Shown one piece after another: positions 3,001 through 53,365 of a DNA stretch of 64,000 bases. The stretch comes from Candidatus Cetobacterium colombiensis (GTDB lineage Bacteria; Fusobacteriota; Fusobacteriia; Fusobacteriales; Fusobacteriaceae). Numbering within the stretch: the first letter of the stretch is position 1; each line of letters starts with the position of its first letter. The notes below the pieces were generated by a model. The model did not search any database. It saw only the letters and a list, made by a program, of their open reading frames with translations, and was not told the DNA's origin. The stretch covers positions 114,239 through 178,238 of the forward strand of contig NZ_JAVIKH010000003.1 in NCBI RefSeq assembly GCF_033962415.1, written 5' to 3'. Both the position numbers and the translations under genes were made by a program.

Positions 3001-4836
3001 TTTGGAAATATTTATGTAGAAGGTGAGGGATCTATTGAGGAAGAGAAAGGTGTTAATGGAATTTATGGTTCTTCTAATTCAGAAAAAATCGAGGTTAATA
3101 ATTTTGGAAGTATAAATGCTATCGGCAAATATGCTAATGGAATTTTAATTTCTAATGGAATTTTAACTAATAATTCTAAAATCGAAGTTGAAGGAGATAA
3201 TTCTAAAGGGATAAGAATTTCTGGAACAAACGCTATTGCTACAAATTTAGGAACTATAAACATTGACGGAGAAGGTTCTTACGGAATGTATGCAGAAAAT
3301 GGAGCAACGGTAACAAATGGAGCTACTGGAGTTATTAATGTAGGAGCTTCAGCAGCAGGAGGAATGTATGCAGATTGGGGTTCTAAAGCAATAAACGATG
3401 GAACTATAAATATTCATAAGGATAATGCAGGTGGAGAAAGTATTGCTCTTGTAGGAAATGGAGAACTTGTTAATAACGGAACTGTAACGGCAAATACAGA
3501 TTTAACTATAAATACAATAAAAGGTGGAACATACGTAATAGGAACAAGAGAAGATGGTTCTTATGGTAAAATTAGTGCTAAAAATGTATCGATAGATGGA
3601 GATGTAGTTGTATCAGCAGGGATAACTAAAAATGGATTTAAAAATGAGTATACTATGCAAAACGTAGTAGATGCAGAAGATATAAAATTAGGGGATAATT
3701 TTAACTTTACATCTAATTCATTACTTTATGATGCAGAAGCTGTAACTGATAGATGGGGGAACTTAGATGCTACGTTAAGTAGAAATGATAAAACTTTATC
3801 AGACTTTACAAGTGGATATATAACATCAACAGCTAACATATTTGGAAAATATCAAAATGAGGATAGCTTTAAAACTCTTTCGAGCGATGCGAAACAAGTT
3901 ATAAAAGCTATTGATACAACGAGTGTAGAAAGTATTGATGAAACTTTAAATGGTTTAACACCAACAATCTATGCTAACTTAGGAAGACAGATTTTAGAAA
4001 CAAGTGAAACATTTAAAGAGCAAGATATGGTAGCTATAAATAGTTTAGGGGAAAATAGCTATAACTTTACATTTATAGGTGAATACCAAGATGTTGATTC
4101 TAGAGACAACATAGAAGGTTACAAATCTAAAATGAGTGGATTTGTAGGAGCTATGAACTTTGGAGATGGAACATTTGGAACTATTGGATATGGATATAAT
4201 GCTGTTGACTATAAGGATAATGGAAAAGGTCATATTCAAACAATTCACTTGGGGTTAAATAGACTAGGAAAATATGAAGGAGTAGACTATAACTTTGGAA
4301 TTGGTGGAGAGTATAATTTCCATGAAAACAAAAGAGACATAGATTTACTTGGAAGAAGAGCTGAATCAGACTTTGATTCTTATGGAGTGAGAGCTTCAGG
4401 AGAAGTTTCAAAGGTGTTTGGAGAAAAAGCATATGTTAAACCATATTTAGGACTAGATTTAGCACATATGAAATATGATTCATTTACTGAGTCAAAAGCT
4501 AACTCGTTAAATGCTAATGTAGAGTCAGAAAACTACACATCTGTACTACCAAAAGTTGGTTTTGTAGTTGGAGATAGATTCTATGGATTAGATCTATTTG
4601 CAGGAGTGGAGTATTCATATGAGTTAGGAAATATGGATAAAGAGCAAAACTTCTCATATGAAGGATTTGAAGGAACAGGAAAACTACCTAAAGATGGTTT
4701 AGAGTGTGGAACAACAGGGGTAAAAGCTGGAGCAAGTTACGAAGTTAATAACTTTACACTAGGAGCAAGTGTAGGTAAAAACTTTGGAAGAAGAGACAAT
4801 AGCTTTGTAAATATGTCTTTAGGATATAGATTCTAA
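1..4836 (+). CDS. Autotransporter adhesin, 3' part (5' end outside window)
   Basis: The frame is open from base 1 (Y-S-R-G-M...), so the first in-window ATG at 13 is not the true start and the gene is cut by the window edge. At least 1,611 residues are visible. About the first 1,320 are Asn/Gly/Ser-rich with recurring short motifs such as NEGDITVTGDG, YNSGNI and GIYAS, as expected of a beta-helical passenger. The last roughly 270 residues look like an autotransporter beta-barrel and end in G-Y-R-F, with the usual terminal aromatic. The protein would be secreted through the outer membrane (type V secretion) and displayed or released; adhesion is an inference. Four related blocks of about 180 residues repeat in the passenger. 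No signal peptide can be seen because the N-terminus is missing. Confidence 0.88.
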   Translation, partial: YSRGMRIRQNSTGINNGNISIIGGEGEGIVAQTSSEGINNNKIYLESSSFIAEEFCEHDNPTENHFHTRIEHTYLRGMRAWENSKIINEEEIAFLGNGLGMQGHLQSEIVNNGSIYGESILYAEDKYSNLTYIRGMEVNDNSYGENNGLISLIGEGEGMQARENSEIVNNGIIQLEGVLATAEGAENETSSYLGGMSISNSKGTNNGLISVNKVYYGHGVSVNGGEFENSSTGKIEIDGISGATAIYASTNSYDGNENQEKSTSIVNDGILSVSGSEYLVGINGYGSNENDQLLKVENNGIINVTGDFSKGIEVTNGNLINTGEINLDGNHVTALSISGSGKLINTKDLNLSGVAIRGNSFSDNREIIIENEGNLIVTGDGEVIKDLISNNHYTHNAAKGIESNGGNIFNSGNIVATGNGAYLEYENDWGGTSSSSSMAAQGIYASNAGVVKNEGDITVTGDAKDSWNGATGIYASGKFSYNPSTETNTYEKVKVENSGVIKVDGDYARGISVNTGDLINIGKIDVTGISSVGIFSTTNSDSVVISKIENEGDITVIGDGEAKKDLNNNYYSSKDAAKGIESYNGDVYNSGNIVATGNGAYLEYETDYGITSTSSMAAQGIYASNTSGIVVNEGDITVTGDTEDSNNGATGIYASGKYDYDSSTGNNVYIKVDVQNSGAIRVYGDYARGISTLYGDLINIGKVDVTGVSSVGISSTNNYGSSVMSKIENEGDITVTGDAIILNEKNGYKRPYDAAVGIKSYNTDVYNSGNITVSGNGKREDYFFEVMDKVDTSIGAGATGIYAENIHNLENYGVINVTGDSEKPGYGTHSGIDIGTVGIYANGKRYGDSNLIVTPEEIVTIKNSGEIVVEGKFSTGIRVDYGNVINTAQISVLGTGSKGIDGNYFNDRPSNPNTPLKIENEGDIYVEGNGEIIIGNHYDGGHRAIGAAVGIISTNTSIYNSGNITAIGNGVYDSGVTNNYSKYAEAAMGINAKGSVTVNNFGNIYVEGEGSIEEEKGVNGIYGSSNSEKIEVNNFGSINAIGKYANGILISNGILTNNSKIEVEGDNSKGIRISGTNAIATNLGTINIDGEGSYGMYAENGATVTNGATGVINVGASAAGGMYADWGSKAINDGTINIHKDNAGGESIALVGNGELVNNGTVTANTDLTINTIKGGTYVIGTREDGSYGKISAKNVSIDGDVVVSAGITKNGFKNEYTMQNVVDAEDIKLGDNFNFTSNSLLYDAEAVTDRWGNLDATLSRNDKTLSDFTSGYITSTANIFGKYQNEDSFKTLSSDAKQVIKAIDTTSVESIDETLNGLTPTIYANLGRQILETSETFKEQDMVAINSLGENSYNFTFIGEYQDVDSRDNIEGYKSKMSGFVGAMNFGDGTFGTIGYGYNAVDYKDNGKGHIQTIHLGLNRLGKYEGVDYNFGIGGEYNFHENKRDIDLLGRRAESDFDSYGVRASGEVSKVFGEKAYVKPYLGLDLAHMKYDSFTESKANSLNANVESENYTSVLPKVGFVVGDRFYGLDLFAGVEYSYELGNMDKEQNFSYEGFEGTGKLPKDGLECGTTGVKAGASYEVNNFTLGASVGKNFGRRDNSFVNMSLGYRF

Positions 4837-48747: not shown

Positions 48748-49833
48748 TTATTTTAGAATTTGATCTTTATCATTTTTATCATACTCAATAACTCTCCCTA
48801 AAGAATCTCCAGGTTCGCTGTATGGATAATCTTTAACACTTGCTACAACACCGTCATTTGGAGATTTATATTCTTTTACAACATTTCCAAATGAATCATA
48901 TTGAATAAATAAAACATCATCCTTTTTTACTTGATCCATAACTTTAACTTTATTTTCAACAAATCCACCTTTTTCAGCTCTCACACGACTCCAAGAGTTT
49001 CCATAGAATGTTTTTGTTTTAGGATCAACTTCTTTTCCCGTTAGGTTATCCCAATAAATAAGATTGTTTATAACTCCGTTAGTAGCTCTTTCAATAATTA
49101 AAGCCTCTTGAGTTTCAGAAGATCCTAATTCAAAAGTTATACTAGGTACACCCATTTGAACAAATGAAGTTTCAACAGATCCATTTTCACCATTATCCAT
49201 TTTAACTATATCTGCTCCTGTTAATTCAGCCATTTTTTTAATATCAGGGTTTCTAAAATCAGCATAAACAAATAATGGGAATTGACTTCCTCTACCACTT
49301 GTATGTAGGTCAATCACTTTATCTGCATTTTTTGATAATAGATTATTCCAAACTAATGTTGAATATTTTTGATCAGAGTTTGTTATTTTTCCTGCATTCA
49401 TCTGTCTATTTAAGTCAGATGTATTTTCAGAGGTACCTCCAAATGTATATCCTCTGTTATTGTTTAATAAACCAGGAACATTCATTCCATGAACTATTGT
49501 TACAGTTCCTTTTATATCTTTTGGATTTAATTTTTCTTTTAATTTATAAGTAGTTAAAATGGGATTTAATTCATTTCCATGAACACCAGAATTAATTAAA
49601 AATCTTTTTCCAGGTTCATTCCCTTTTATTACAGTAACTGGAATATACCAAGGATTTCCTAAACTGTTTTCAACTCCTTCAAAGAAAAATTCATATGTTT
49701 TACCACTTTCTAAATCGTTTACATCTAAATTAGTAATAATATCTTTTCCAAGATATTTTCCACCTGTGTACTCAGTTTTTGCTAAAGTAATTGTTGTTAG
49801 TGATAAAAAAGTTAATAATAAAGTTTTTGACAT
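48748..49833 (-). CDS. Periplasmic succinylglutamate desuccinylase/aspartoacylase-like (M14) protein
   Basis: 361 residues. A signal peptide (S-K-T-L-L-L-T-F-L-S-L-T-T-I-T-L-A) leads to a zinc carboxypeptidase-like fold. G-V-H-G-N-E (His and Glu ligands, about 82-87), D-L-H-T-S-G (third His, about 176-181) and a late T-F-E-L-G-S-S-E catalytic Glu region are present. The C-terminal portion looks like the lipoyl-like barrel seen in desuccinylase relatives. The substrate is unknown; an N-acyl amino acid or a peptide is likely. CGGGAGG precedes the ATG. Expression is apparently governed by the structured leader and terminator upstream. Confidence 0.78.
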   Translation of the reverse strand: MSKTLLLTFLSLTTITLAKTEYTGGKYLGKDIITNLDVNDLESGKTYEFFFEGVENSLGNPWYIPVTVIKGNEPGKRFLINSGVHGNELNPILTTYKLKEKLNPKDIKGTVTIVHGMNVPGLLNNNRGYTFGGTSENTSDLNRQMNAGKITNSDQKYSTLVWNNLLSKNADKVIDLHTSGRGSQFPLFVYADFRNPDIKKMAELTGADIVKMDNGENGSVETSFVQMGVPSITFELGSSETQEALIIERATNGVINNLIYWDNLTGKEVDPKTKTFYGNSWSRVRAEKGGFVENKVKVMDQVKKDDVLFIQYDSFGNVVKEYKSPNDGVVASVKDYPYSEPGDSLGRVIEYDKNDKDQILK

Positions 49834-49869: not shown

Positions 49870-49899
49870 AGAAAAAAGACACACCAAAAATGGTATGCC
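49870..49899 (-). terminator. Attenuator-like terminator downstream of the leader RNA
   Basis: The minus strand reads GGCATACCA-TTTT-TGGTGTGTC (two G-U pairs) followed by TTTTTTCTTTT. It lies between the structured leader and the carboxypeptidase-like gene. The plus strand has no T-run. Confidence 0.85.
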
Positions 49900-49918
49900 T
49901 TCGAGAACTTAAGTAAAA

Positions 49919-50037
49919 ACTAATAAGCGTATTGTTATGGCAGCGTCACAATACTTAATTCACAGGATCACAAGATCATAGCCGTCGGCCTTAGGCTCCC
50001 TTTGTGGAAGTGAATTAACCTCTATTCTATTGTTAGT
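49919..50037 (-). promoter_or_regulatory. Unidentified structured leader RNA, probable riboswitch
   Basis: Minus-strand RNA of about 120 nucleotides folds as a three-way junction. P1 is ACUAAcaAUA near the 5' end with UAUUAGU at the 3' end. P2 is a perfect 9-bp UUAAUUCAC/GUGAAUUAA containing AAAGGGAGCC...GGCCGACGGCU and GAUC-UUGU-GAUC. P3 is GUAUUGU/ACAAUAC with loop GACGCUGCCAUA. GC-rich unpaired blocks in an otherwise AT-rich region suggest conserved ligand-binding elements. It sits between a strong promoter and an intrinsic terminator. I compared it from memory with the purine, lysine, SAM, TPP, cobalamin, M-box, glycine and c-di-GMP consensus sequences, and none fits. Confidence 0.7.
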
Positions 50038-50041
50038 AAGG

Positions 50042-50070
50042 AGTATACTATAGTCATAAAAAAAATGCAA
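50042..50070 (-). promoter_or_regulatory. Promoter of the structured leader RNA
   Basis: TTGCAT (50070-50065), 17-base spacer, TATACT (50047-50042) on the minus strand; the start is expected near 50035. Confidence 0.78.
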
Positions 50071-50866: not shown

Positions 50867-51985
50867 CTATTTTGTTATATAATTTTTTAAAGCTTCAATT
50901 GTTTTAAAGAGTTCTCTTGTATCTAGTTTTTCATTTACAGTATGTACTGCTTCCATTCCTACTCCAATGATAATAGAATTATATCCTTTTTCTGCAAAAA
51001 TATTACTATCAGATCCGCCACCAATAATTTGAAGCTCTGTTAAAATTCCCATTTTTTCATAAATAGTAGCAAACTCTTTTGCAAAAGCTAACTCATCTGT
51101 TGGTTTTAAAGCTGGAAAAACACAGATTTTTTCAAAAGTAAATTCTCCACCGAATAATTCAACACTTTTTTTACATGCATTTTCATAAGAACTTAAAGTT
51201 TCATTTATAGATTCTAAAGAGTGACCTCTTACTTCCCCTGTAACAACACAAAGATCAGCAACTACATTACTAGGAAATTCAGAATGAATAGTTCCTAAGT
51301 TTGAAGTAGTAAGAGAATCAATTCTTCCTATATTCATATTTGAAATAGCTACTCCAGCAAGAGTTATTGCATTGATTCCTTTTTCAGGTTCGATTCCAGC
51401 ATGAGCTTTTCTTCCGTTAAATGTAATTTTAAAATCGTATTTACTTGGTGCAGTATGAGCTATTAAACCAGCTCTACCAGAATTATCTATGACAATCATA
51501 TTCTGTGCAGGAATCATATGTTTTGGAACTTTATCCCAATCAATATTTTTAGCTCCAAGCATTCCATTCTCTTCGCAAGGAGTTAGTAAAACATAAATAT
51601 CTTTATGGTTTTCATTATTTTCAATCAATAATTCTAATGTTTCTAAAATTGCGGCAATTCCAGCCTTGTCATCTCCACCTAAAGTTGTAGTTTCATCAGT
51701 CATTATAAAGTCTCCATCAATAATTGGATTTATATTTTGACAAGGTTCAACTACATCTGTATGAGCAGCTAAAGTAATTCCATCTCCTTCTACATGACCC
51801 TTTAGTTTAGCAAAAATTGTTGGAGCATTACCTCCATATTTTTCATATCCTAAATCTAAATATACTTCAAGACCTAATTTCTCTAAGTATTTTACTAGAT
51901 ACTCACAATATTCTTTTTCATTTAAAGATGGAGAATAAATTTTTACCATCTCTATAAAATTGTTAATAACTCTAGTTTTGTTCAT
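50867..51985 (-). CDS. M20 family metallopeptidase (PepT-like)
   Basis: 372 residues. Zinc site motifs are A-A-H-T-D-V-V, T-T-L-G-G-D-D-K-A-G (bridging Asp), P-C-E-E-N-G-M-L-G (general base Glu and ligand Glu), I-D-N-S-G and a final G-M-E-A-V-H-T-V-N-E. The dimerisation lid begins G-R-K-A-H-A-G. It is likely an aminopeptidase or amidohydrolase acting on small peptides or acylated amino acids in the cytoplasm. The start overlaps the stop of the upstream membrane-protein gene (TAATG), so it is functionally tied to that system. Confidence 0.85.
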   Translation of the reverse strand: MNKTRVINNFIEMVKIYSPSLNEKEYCEYLVKYLEKLGLEVYLDLGYEKYGGNAPTIFAKLKGHVEGDGITLAAHTDVVEPCQNINPIIDGDFIMTDETTTLGGDDKAGIAAILETLELLIENNENHKDIYVLLTPCEENGMLGAKNIDWDKVPKHMIPAQNMIVIDNSGRAGLIAHTAPSKYDFKITFNGRKAHAGIEPEKGINAITLAGVAISNMNIGRIDSLTTSNLGTIHSEFPSNVVADLCVVTGEVRGHSLESINETLSSYENACKKSVELFGGEFTFEKICVFPALKPTDELAFAKEFATIYEKMGILTELQIIGGGSDSNIFAEKGYNSIIIGVGMEAVHTVNEKLDTRELFKTIEALKNYITK

Positions 51986-52647
51986 TATTTAGCATTCCTT
52001 TCCATTAGTTTTTTAGCAAAGATTATACTTGAAAATACTGATACTAAAGTGATTAAAAATGCTGGCTTTCCTGGAATGAAATCAACAATTTTAGTCATAG
52101 CAAAAGAAACTACTAAAGAGAAAGCTGCAACTTTAGGTGATTTTATTGCAAATTGAGCAAAAACTCCACCGAAAAGTCCAGGTATAACTAATGTTAATAA
52201 TGCCATAAAACTAGGAGGTAATTGACTTAATAAAGCTTGACCTGCTAAAACTGACAGTATTAAAAATACAATACCAATCCAAATAGAAACTCCAATTCCA
52301 ATTGTACCCATTATTGAACCTTCTTCTGTTCCTGCAGGACACTCTGAAGCTTCTTGTGCTGATATAGCTGCTGGAATTCTCATATTAACTAAGTTTCCTG
52401 ATAAGAATCCCATGTATAATCCAGCTCTTCCAACTATTGGATAATAACTGATTGGCTCACTAAAATAAAAAGCTCCAGAAACAGATGCCTGAGATATTGC
52501 TCCAGCTACAATAGCTGCAAGTCCAGGGTTAAATCCAAAATAAAAAGTCATAATAAGAGCTGGTAATAACGAAGCAACTAAGCCTAAAACCATAGTACTT
52601 CTTCCAATTTTTGTAACATCATCTATATATCTATTATAAATTCCCAT
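51985..52647 (-). CDS. Membrane protein partner of the DUF5058-type protein
   Basis: 220 residues with about six to seven membrane helices. Conserved-looking small-residue helices contain G-A-I-S-Q-A-S-V-S-G-A-F-Y and C-P-A-G-T-E-E-G-S-I-M-G-T-I-G-I-G-V. No known transporter motif. It sits between a DUF5058-like gene and an M20 peptidase with 16-base and overlapping spacing, suggesting a two-subunit transporter whose substrate the peptidase hydrolyses. GGAGG precedes the ATG. Confidence 0.6.
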   Translation of the reverse strand: MGIYNRYIDDVTKIGRSTMVLGLVASLLPALIMTFYFGFNPGLAAIVAGAISQASVSGAFYFSEPISYYPIVGRAGLYMGFLSGNLVNMRIPAAISAQEASECPAGTEEGSIMGTIGIGVSIWIGIVFLILSVLAGQALLSQLPPSFMALLTLVIPGLFGGVFAQFAIKSPKVAAFSLVVSFAMTKIVDFIPGKPAFLITLVSVFSSIIFAKKLMERNAK

Positions 52648-52663
52648 ATTTATCCTCCAAATT

Positions 52664-53365
52664 TTATAATGCTAAAAGTCCTATAGCAGCTCCACCAAAC
52701 ATTGCAAAAGTAAGTGCCCACTCTTTTAACCAAGGCATTTTTTCACCTATTTTTAAACAGATTACCATTATAATCATACCCGATATAGCTGCAACTGTAA
52801 CATCTGGATTTGTTTTAAATTTCATTAAATTTCCAACATTAAAAAATGCAAAAGATCCTAACATTGCTCCTAGCCCTACAGCAGGTAAAAGAGCTTTTCT
52901 TCCATTTGTTAATAAACCATTAACTTTATCCATTTTATGTGCAAATAAAAATACGAAAATAATCCATCCCATTGATCCTAATGCCATTGTCCAAAGAGCA
53001 TTTGTAAATACAACTGGTAACATATTTGTTGAAAGCTCAGATCCCATAGCTTGTGCTCCAAAGTTTGCAGCCATAGCTTCAAAGTTCGAACTTCCTATTA
53101 AACTTAATCTTAAAGTAGAAACTGGAGATCCCATAGTTACTAAAAGAGCTAATAAACTTCCTACAACTCCAAGTGCGGGACCAATACTAGCCATAGCACT
53201 AACTTTAATTCCTTTAGAAATTTGTTCGTTAGATATTCTTAAATCTTTAGCTGCTGCTATTGATTTTTTAATTATTAACCCCGATTGAAGTAAAACAATT
53301 ATAATACCCAAAATAGCTGTTCCCCATATGATTGGGTGTGATGCGTAAATCATGTGATTATTCAT
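52664..53365 (-). CDS. DUF5058 family membrane protein
   Basis: 233 residues with about six membrane helices. S-H-P-I-I-W-G-T-A-I-L-G-I-I-I-V-L-L-Q-S near the start, S-A-M-A-S-I-G-P-A-L-G-V-V-G-S and W-T-M-A-L-G-S-M-G-W match what I recall of DUF5058. It is the first gene of a three-gene operon with a second membrane protein and an M20 peptidase; uptake of a peptide or acylated amino acid is a reasonable inference. CAGGAGGG precedes the ATG. Confidence 0.65.
   Translation of the reverse strand: MNNHMIYASHPIIWGTAILGIIIVLLQSGLIIKKSIAAAKDLRISNEQISKGIKVSAMASIGPALGVVGSLLALLVTMGSPVSTLRLSLIGSSNFEAMAANFGAQAMGSELSTNMLPVVFTNALWTMALGSMGWIIFVFLFAHKMDKVNGLLTNGRKALLPAVGLGAMLGSFAFFNVGNLMKFKTNPDVTVAAISGMIIMVICLKIGEKMPWLKEWALTFAMFGGAAIGLLAL

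Follow-up and report, generated by a model that had tools for sequence, protein, structure and literature searches.

A conserved leader RNA of the Fusobacteriaceae as a candidate riboswitch class with L-arginine as its possible ligand

The leader RNA and its gene

The window analysed here is a stretch of 64,000 nucleotides (nt) from Candidatus Cetobacterium colombiensis (contig NZ_JAVIKH010000003.1, positions 114,239 to 178,238 of the forward strand), and all coordinates given without a locus name refer to it. On its minus strand, a gene for a hydrolase of the AstE/AspA type is preceded by a structured RNA that is flanked by a putative promoter and an intrinsic terminator. That this leader is a genuine conserved cis-regulatory RNA with a terminator is practically certain, and very probably it represents a new class of metabolite-sensing riboswitch. 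Its components, all of them on the minus strand, are the following:

50042..50070, putative sigma-70 promoter, read by eye: -35 TTGCAT (50070-50065), 17-base-pair (bp) spacer, -10 TATACT (50047-50042)
49903..50027, candidate riboswitch aptamer, structured RNA of 125 nt: covariance model match of 128 bits, E-value 3.9e-29, the window copy itself being part of the training set of that model
50019..50022, helix P1, 5' strand GAGG, pairing with UCUC at 49906-49903: conserved and nearly invariant, modest covariation support
50010..50018, helix P2a, 5' strand UUAAUUCAC, pairing with GUGAAUUAA at 49963-49955: changes on both sides at several pairs
50002..50006, helix P2b, 5' strand CACAA, pairing with UUGUG at 49973-49969: changes on both sides at five of five pairs in the larger of the two alignments described below
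49981..49996, helix P2c, GCC/GGC, with loop L2 UAAGGCCGAC (49993-49984): near-invariant core
49929..49954, helix P3, GUAUUGU/ACAAUAC, with the 12-nt loop L3 GACGCUGCCAUA (49947-49936)
49907..49928, helix P4, GCUUA (49928-49924) with UAAGU (49911-49907): absent in one subgroup of copies found before YjiH-family genes
49875..49902, intrinsic terminator, directly 3' of the RNA: hairpin GAAGGCAUACC-AUUUUU-GGUGUGUCUUU and then a T tract
48748..49833, controlled gene, secreted or periplasmic AstE/AspA-type metallo-hydrolase of 361 amino acids: Pfam PF24827, E-value 6.9e-29

The original prediction had described a leader RNA built like a riboswitch but without an assigned class, and most of its particulars were recovered. 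The sequence blocks AGAGG, AAAGGGAGCC, GGCCGACGGC and GACGCUGCC are present on the minus strand, together with the perfect 9-bp P2 and the 7-bp P3 with its 12-base loop. The three-way junction that it proposed had to be revised, because the window copy carries P4 as an additional helix and the junction is therefore four-way. The aspartoacylase- or desuccinylase-like periplasmic gene that it placed downstream is indeed of the AstE/AspA type; the nearest relatives of the hydrolase with solved structures are AstE/AspA proteins and an N-acetyl-diaminobutyrate deacetylase (E-values of about 1e-7 to 6e-9).

Conservation and covariation of the RNA

The folding energy of the single window copy is unremarkable (z = -1.8), and what sets this RNA apart from chance is its conservation together with the covariation of its helices. 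A BLAST search with the leader returned four copies in its own genome, with 100, 87, 71 and 80% identity, which precede different genes, and many more in related organisms. A covariance model built from 27 sequences was used to search 98 genomes of the phylum and gave 47 matches in 19 of them; two weak matches outside the Fusobacteriaceae (E-values 0.008 and 0.09) were rejected as unrelated sequence on inspection. The 45 copies that were kept, each with at least 67 bits, come from 17 genomes of four genera, all of them Fusobacteriaceae, and 12 of these genomes are of Cetobacterium. Model R2 had no match in 391 genomes of Clostridia, under strict filters and without a positive control in that group. 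A scan of genome and viral contigs for an exact but loose pattern, which carries no claim of absence elsewhere, gave matches of which, among those listed, rescoring with the covariance model retained only Cetobacterium and Fusobacteriaceae records. In a plasmid collection, matches were limited to two replicons of Cetobacterium somerae, and no similarity to the leader was found in phages.

In a MAFFT alignment of the copies, 97.7% of the cells that should be paired are paired, and changes on both sides occur at 12 of 28 pairs; when the structures were slid by one to three columns as a control, these values were 30-49% and 0-2 pairs. RNAalifold, without any structure supplied, predicts P2a, P2b, P2c and P3 with 11 pairs changed on both sides. 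A larger alignment with P4 included has 95.5% of cells paired and changes on both sides at 19 of 33 pairs, versus 4-9 in the slid versions. In this alignment P3 is paired in 100% of cells and changes on both sides at four of its seven pairs, while P4 is paired in 87% of cells and changes on both sides at two pairs, even though it formed no part of the first model. The model behind the larger alignment included P1 but not P4; the apparent P1 changes in one YjiH subgroup may have been fitted by the model, and for this reason the support for P1 is considered modest. The closing pair of P2c shows one replacement of G-C by A-U.

The loops L2 (UAAGGCCGAY) and L3 (GAMGCUGCCAUA) are nearly invariant, as would be expected of a ligand pocket. 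The GGC of L2 and the GCC of L3, both invariant, could possibly form a kissing interaction.

Two variants of the RNA were distinguished. The second YjiH subgroup (L032, L031, L004 and L033) appears without P4 and without the GAGG/UCUC form of P1, which is replaced by a different, A/U-rich P1. In four diverged copies the core and P3 are retained, but P2 is shrunken; three of them (L044 4537-4649, L245 267-380 and L246 144-256, all on the minus strand) score about 67 bits and keep the terminator. The downstream gene was read for one diverged copy, and it encodes YfcC. These copies are possibly a minimal or a decaying variant.

Promoter and terminator

The promoter of the window copy falls below the threshold of a simple promoter scan; most sister copies among the 40 that were checked have a similar promoter just upstream, with TTGACA or TTTACA, a spacer of 17-18 and a TATACT-like element. 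The terminator hairpin has 12 bp, and 0.1 such sites would be expected from shuffles of a 500-base stretch. A hairpin and T tract are found in 39 of the 40 copies, usually 1-6 nt past the aptamer, and in the remaining one (L020), where the scan detected no terminator, an imperfect hairpin is visible on folding. The predicted full-length fold holds aptamer and terminator together, which makes ligand-stabilised folding compatible with termination, i.e., with an OFF switch.

The pairing that might compete with the terminator was sought as well. Permutation tests gave no support to an antiterminator formed by the L3 loop and a terminator arm; this pairing is strongly predicted in one YjiH subgroup only. 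In two members of the second subgroup, L032 and L031, folding predicts a pairing of the 5' arm of the terminator (AGCGU) with ACGCU of the P3 loop while the terminator is still incomplete, and this pairing may serve as an antiterminator in the subgroup. Likewise, only two copies show a strong pairing of the P3/P4 strand with the terminator arm, and the pairs of each copy are no better than swapped ones.

Genes downstream of the RNA

Across the copies, the genes that follow the RNA encode YjiH-family transporters (in two subgroups), an NhaC-family transporter followed by argH, the AstE/AspA enzyme, and YfcC. In one species, G007, the RNA stands directly before argH. The argH product encoded downstream of the RNA reaches 605 bits with TIGR00838, whose cut-off is 279.5, matches solved argininosuccinate lyases and is encoded by the only argH of its genome, which also has one argG; the possibility that this ArgH-like enzyme is a different succino-lyase was ruled out on these grounds. 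YfcC scores 742.6 bits against the model 'putative basic amino acid antiporter YfcC' (cut-off 500). With the sole argH and YfcC, a gene of arginine biosynthesis and one for a putative basic amino acid antiporter lie directly downstream of the RNA, as expected of an arginine-responsive regulon.

In the relative G014, where no RNA copy was found, a YjiH homologue with 45% identity belongs to a group of consecutive genes on one strand that also holds argH and argG. This run (L293 4569-14183, minus strand), which is without the RNA, comprises an amino-acid ABC transporter, the YjiH homologue, an M20-type peptidase, a solute-binding protein, an opine-dehydrogenase-like gene, argH and argG; the ABC transporter, peptidase, solute-binding protein and opine-dehydrogenase-like gene were assigned by reading the sequence. 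In G031, the AstE/AspA homologue (L295 3713-4567, minus strand) is split, with an internal stop, and has no RNA copy upstream.

Comparison with known RNAs

The window copy had no family match in Rfam 15, at gathering or at permissive thresholds (E-values up to 10), and neither did eight divergent copies at E-values up to 5. The RNA reached the gathering threshold of no Rfam 15 family, the lysine, guanidine, T-box, cobalamin and SAM families included. The leader remains unassigned, as first described, and now stands with strong covariation and with terminators in 39 of 40 copies; a hit to a known class or missing covariation, either of which would have spoken against the original description, was not seen.

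Among the amino acids, lysine, glycine and glutamine have established riboswitches. The lysine riboswitch (L box, RF00168) resembles the new RNA in outline, since it has a multi-helix junction, leads genes for transport or biosynthesis of a basic amino acid and often acts by transcription termination. Its words AGAGG, GGGAG...GCCGA and CUG(U/C)CA also resemble words of the new RNA, a likeness that serves as a lead only. The lysine class, however, forms a five-way junction instead of a three- or four-way one, gives no Rfam match here, and has its conserved words placed elsewhere relative to the helices. The guanidine riboswitches (ykkC motifs) recognise the group found in the arginine side chain and control transcription, but again there is no Rfam match, and the new RNA does not precede genes for the export or degradation of guanidine; the ykkC guanidine RNAs have been reported to reject arginine (PMC7266159). 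An arginine riboswitch has been claimed in the arginase mRNA of Aspergillus, and it shares with the RNA described here the proposed ligand; a 2022 review considered this fungal claim insufficiently supported (PMC10043782). In a limited search of the literature no validated bacterial arginine riboswitch was found, and one may be reported elsewhere.

Proposed function and alternative explanations

Arginine is put forward as the ligand because the RNA precedes the sole argH and transporters that include a putative basic amino acid antiporter, as well as an enzyme of the periplasm with a possible role in releasing amino acids, and because argH, argG and a YjiH gene run together in G014. The original hint of an acyl-amino acid or amino-acid ligand has thereby been narrowed, through the other target genes, to arginine as the leading candidate. 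In the proposed mechanism, transcription would start just upstream and the nascent RNA would fold into the P1-P2-P3(-P4) junction, in which L2, L3 and the internal loops would form the ligand pocket. Binding of the ligand, most likely L-arginine, would stabilise the junction and the adjacent terminator would form, so that plentiful ligand would turn the gene OFF by transcription attenuation. What the copies show directly is a conserved structure, a conserved terminator and recurrent placement before these genes; ligand binding, the identity of the ligand and the OFF direction are what we infer from these data, and we hold arginine with OFF action at about even confidence, or slightly better. 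The fullest form of the proposal is evenly balanced in our estimate: a first natural bacterial L-arginine riboswitch class, with a four-way junction and confined to the Fusobacteriaceae, that would turn off the import of arginine as well as argininosuccinate lyase, with argG under a separate attenuator that uses an Arg leader peptide.

Several observations weigh against an arginine-sensing OFF switch. No consistent antiterminator was identified across the copies, and the P3/P4 junction strand shows no covariation with the terminator arm (8634 of 10000 permutations were as good). The argG gene, whose product catalyses the partner step of argH, is under an apparent Arg leader peptide and not under the RNA. 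Some YjiH loci adjoin genes of sulfur amino acid metabolism (methionine gamma-lyase, homocysteine methyltransferase), and the transport substrates of YjiH and of the NhaC-type protein are putative. Lastly, the copies come from a narrow clade and show little variation in most of the core, which places the pocket outside the reach of covariation analysis.

The same kind of riboswitch could respond to another ligand, such as a sulfur amino acid (methionine, cysteine or homocysteine), citrulline, ornithine, an N-acyl amino acid or a cation, for instance the sodium used by NhaC-type carriers, and we regard this as a less likely alternative. The second YjiH group has a methionine gamma-lyase gene just upstream, the first has a divergent homocysteine S-methyltransferase-like gene beside it, and genes read from sequence as sulfite-reductase-like and cysteine-desulfidase-like are near other YjiH copies; these sulfur genes, however, are neighbours that lie outside the stretch downstream of the RNA, and they vary from copy to copy. 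Sodium is suggested by NhaC, which belongs to a Na+/H+ antiporter family, and an N-acyl amino acid by the AstE/AspA enzyme, but a sodium or sulfur signal fits poorly with argH as a direct target and with that enzyme. An element bound by a protein, causing antitermination or attenuation like RAT, HutP or TRAP targets, is improbable: one element common to several scattered transcription units would be usual for a protein-governed regulon, and the negative search for an antiterminator would also agree with it, yet this RNA, with its length of about 120 nt, its five to six helices and its two nearly invariant loops, is larger than the known protein-bound antiterminators and exceeds them by far in complexity.

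Attenuation through arginine codons in a leader peptide, as apparently occurs upstream of argG, is largely refuted for this RNA, and we give it hardly any weight. In the same bacteria, the leaders of the argG operon (solute-binding protein-argG) encode Arg-containing peptides (MTMRRVLRTHNN..., MTMRRILRTQTR...) of the MTMRRVLRT type, followed by a terminator; they are found at L238 (about 4110-4452, minus strand), L240 (2785-3227, plus strand), L239 and L241, and by their sequence argG appears to be governed by leader-peptide attenuation. Control of arginine synthesis by attenuation would be common to both systems, but the argG leaders code for a peptide, have no shared RNA structure and do not match the covariance model. 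Upstream of the RNA-controlled genes, 9 of 24 checked leaders have no short open reading frame at all, none is shared between the groups of target genes, and the sequence changes keep the base pairs.

With a compact RNA that is unknown to Rfam, covaries strongly and recurs in several copies before argH and transporter genes, the question of arginine binding becomes directly testable in vitro. Should the ligand be another one, the RNA would still be a new structured class, and its targets would help to find the substrates of the YjiH transporters, about which little is known.

Other features of the window

The only match in the window at the Rfam gathering level is a purine riboswitch (RF00167, 8307-8404, minus strand, 56.8 bits). 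Adjoining the leader RNA and without a copy of it, the region 50867-53365 (minus strand) holds an M20-type peptidase beside two membrane proteins, one of them a DUF5058 protein and the other without a Pfam match, and is likely a unit for peptide or amino acid uptake.
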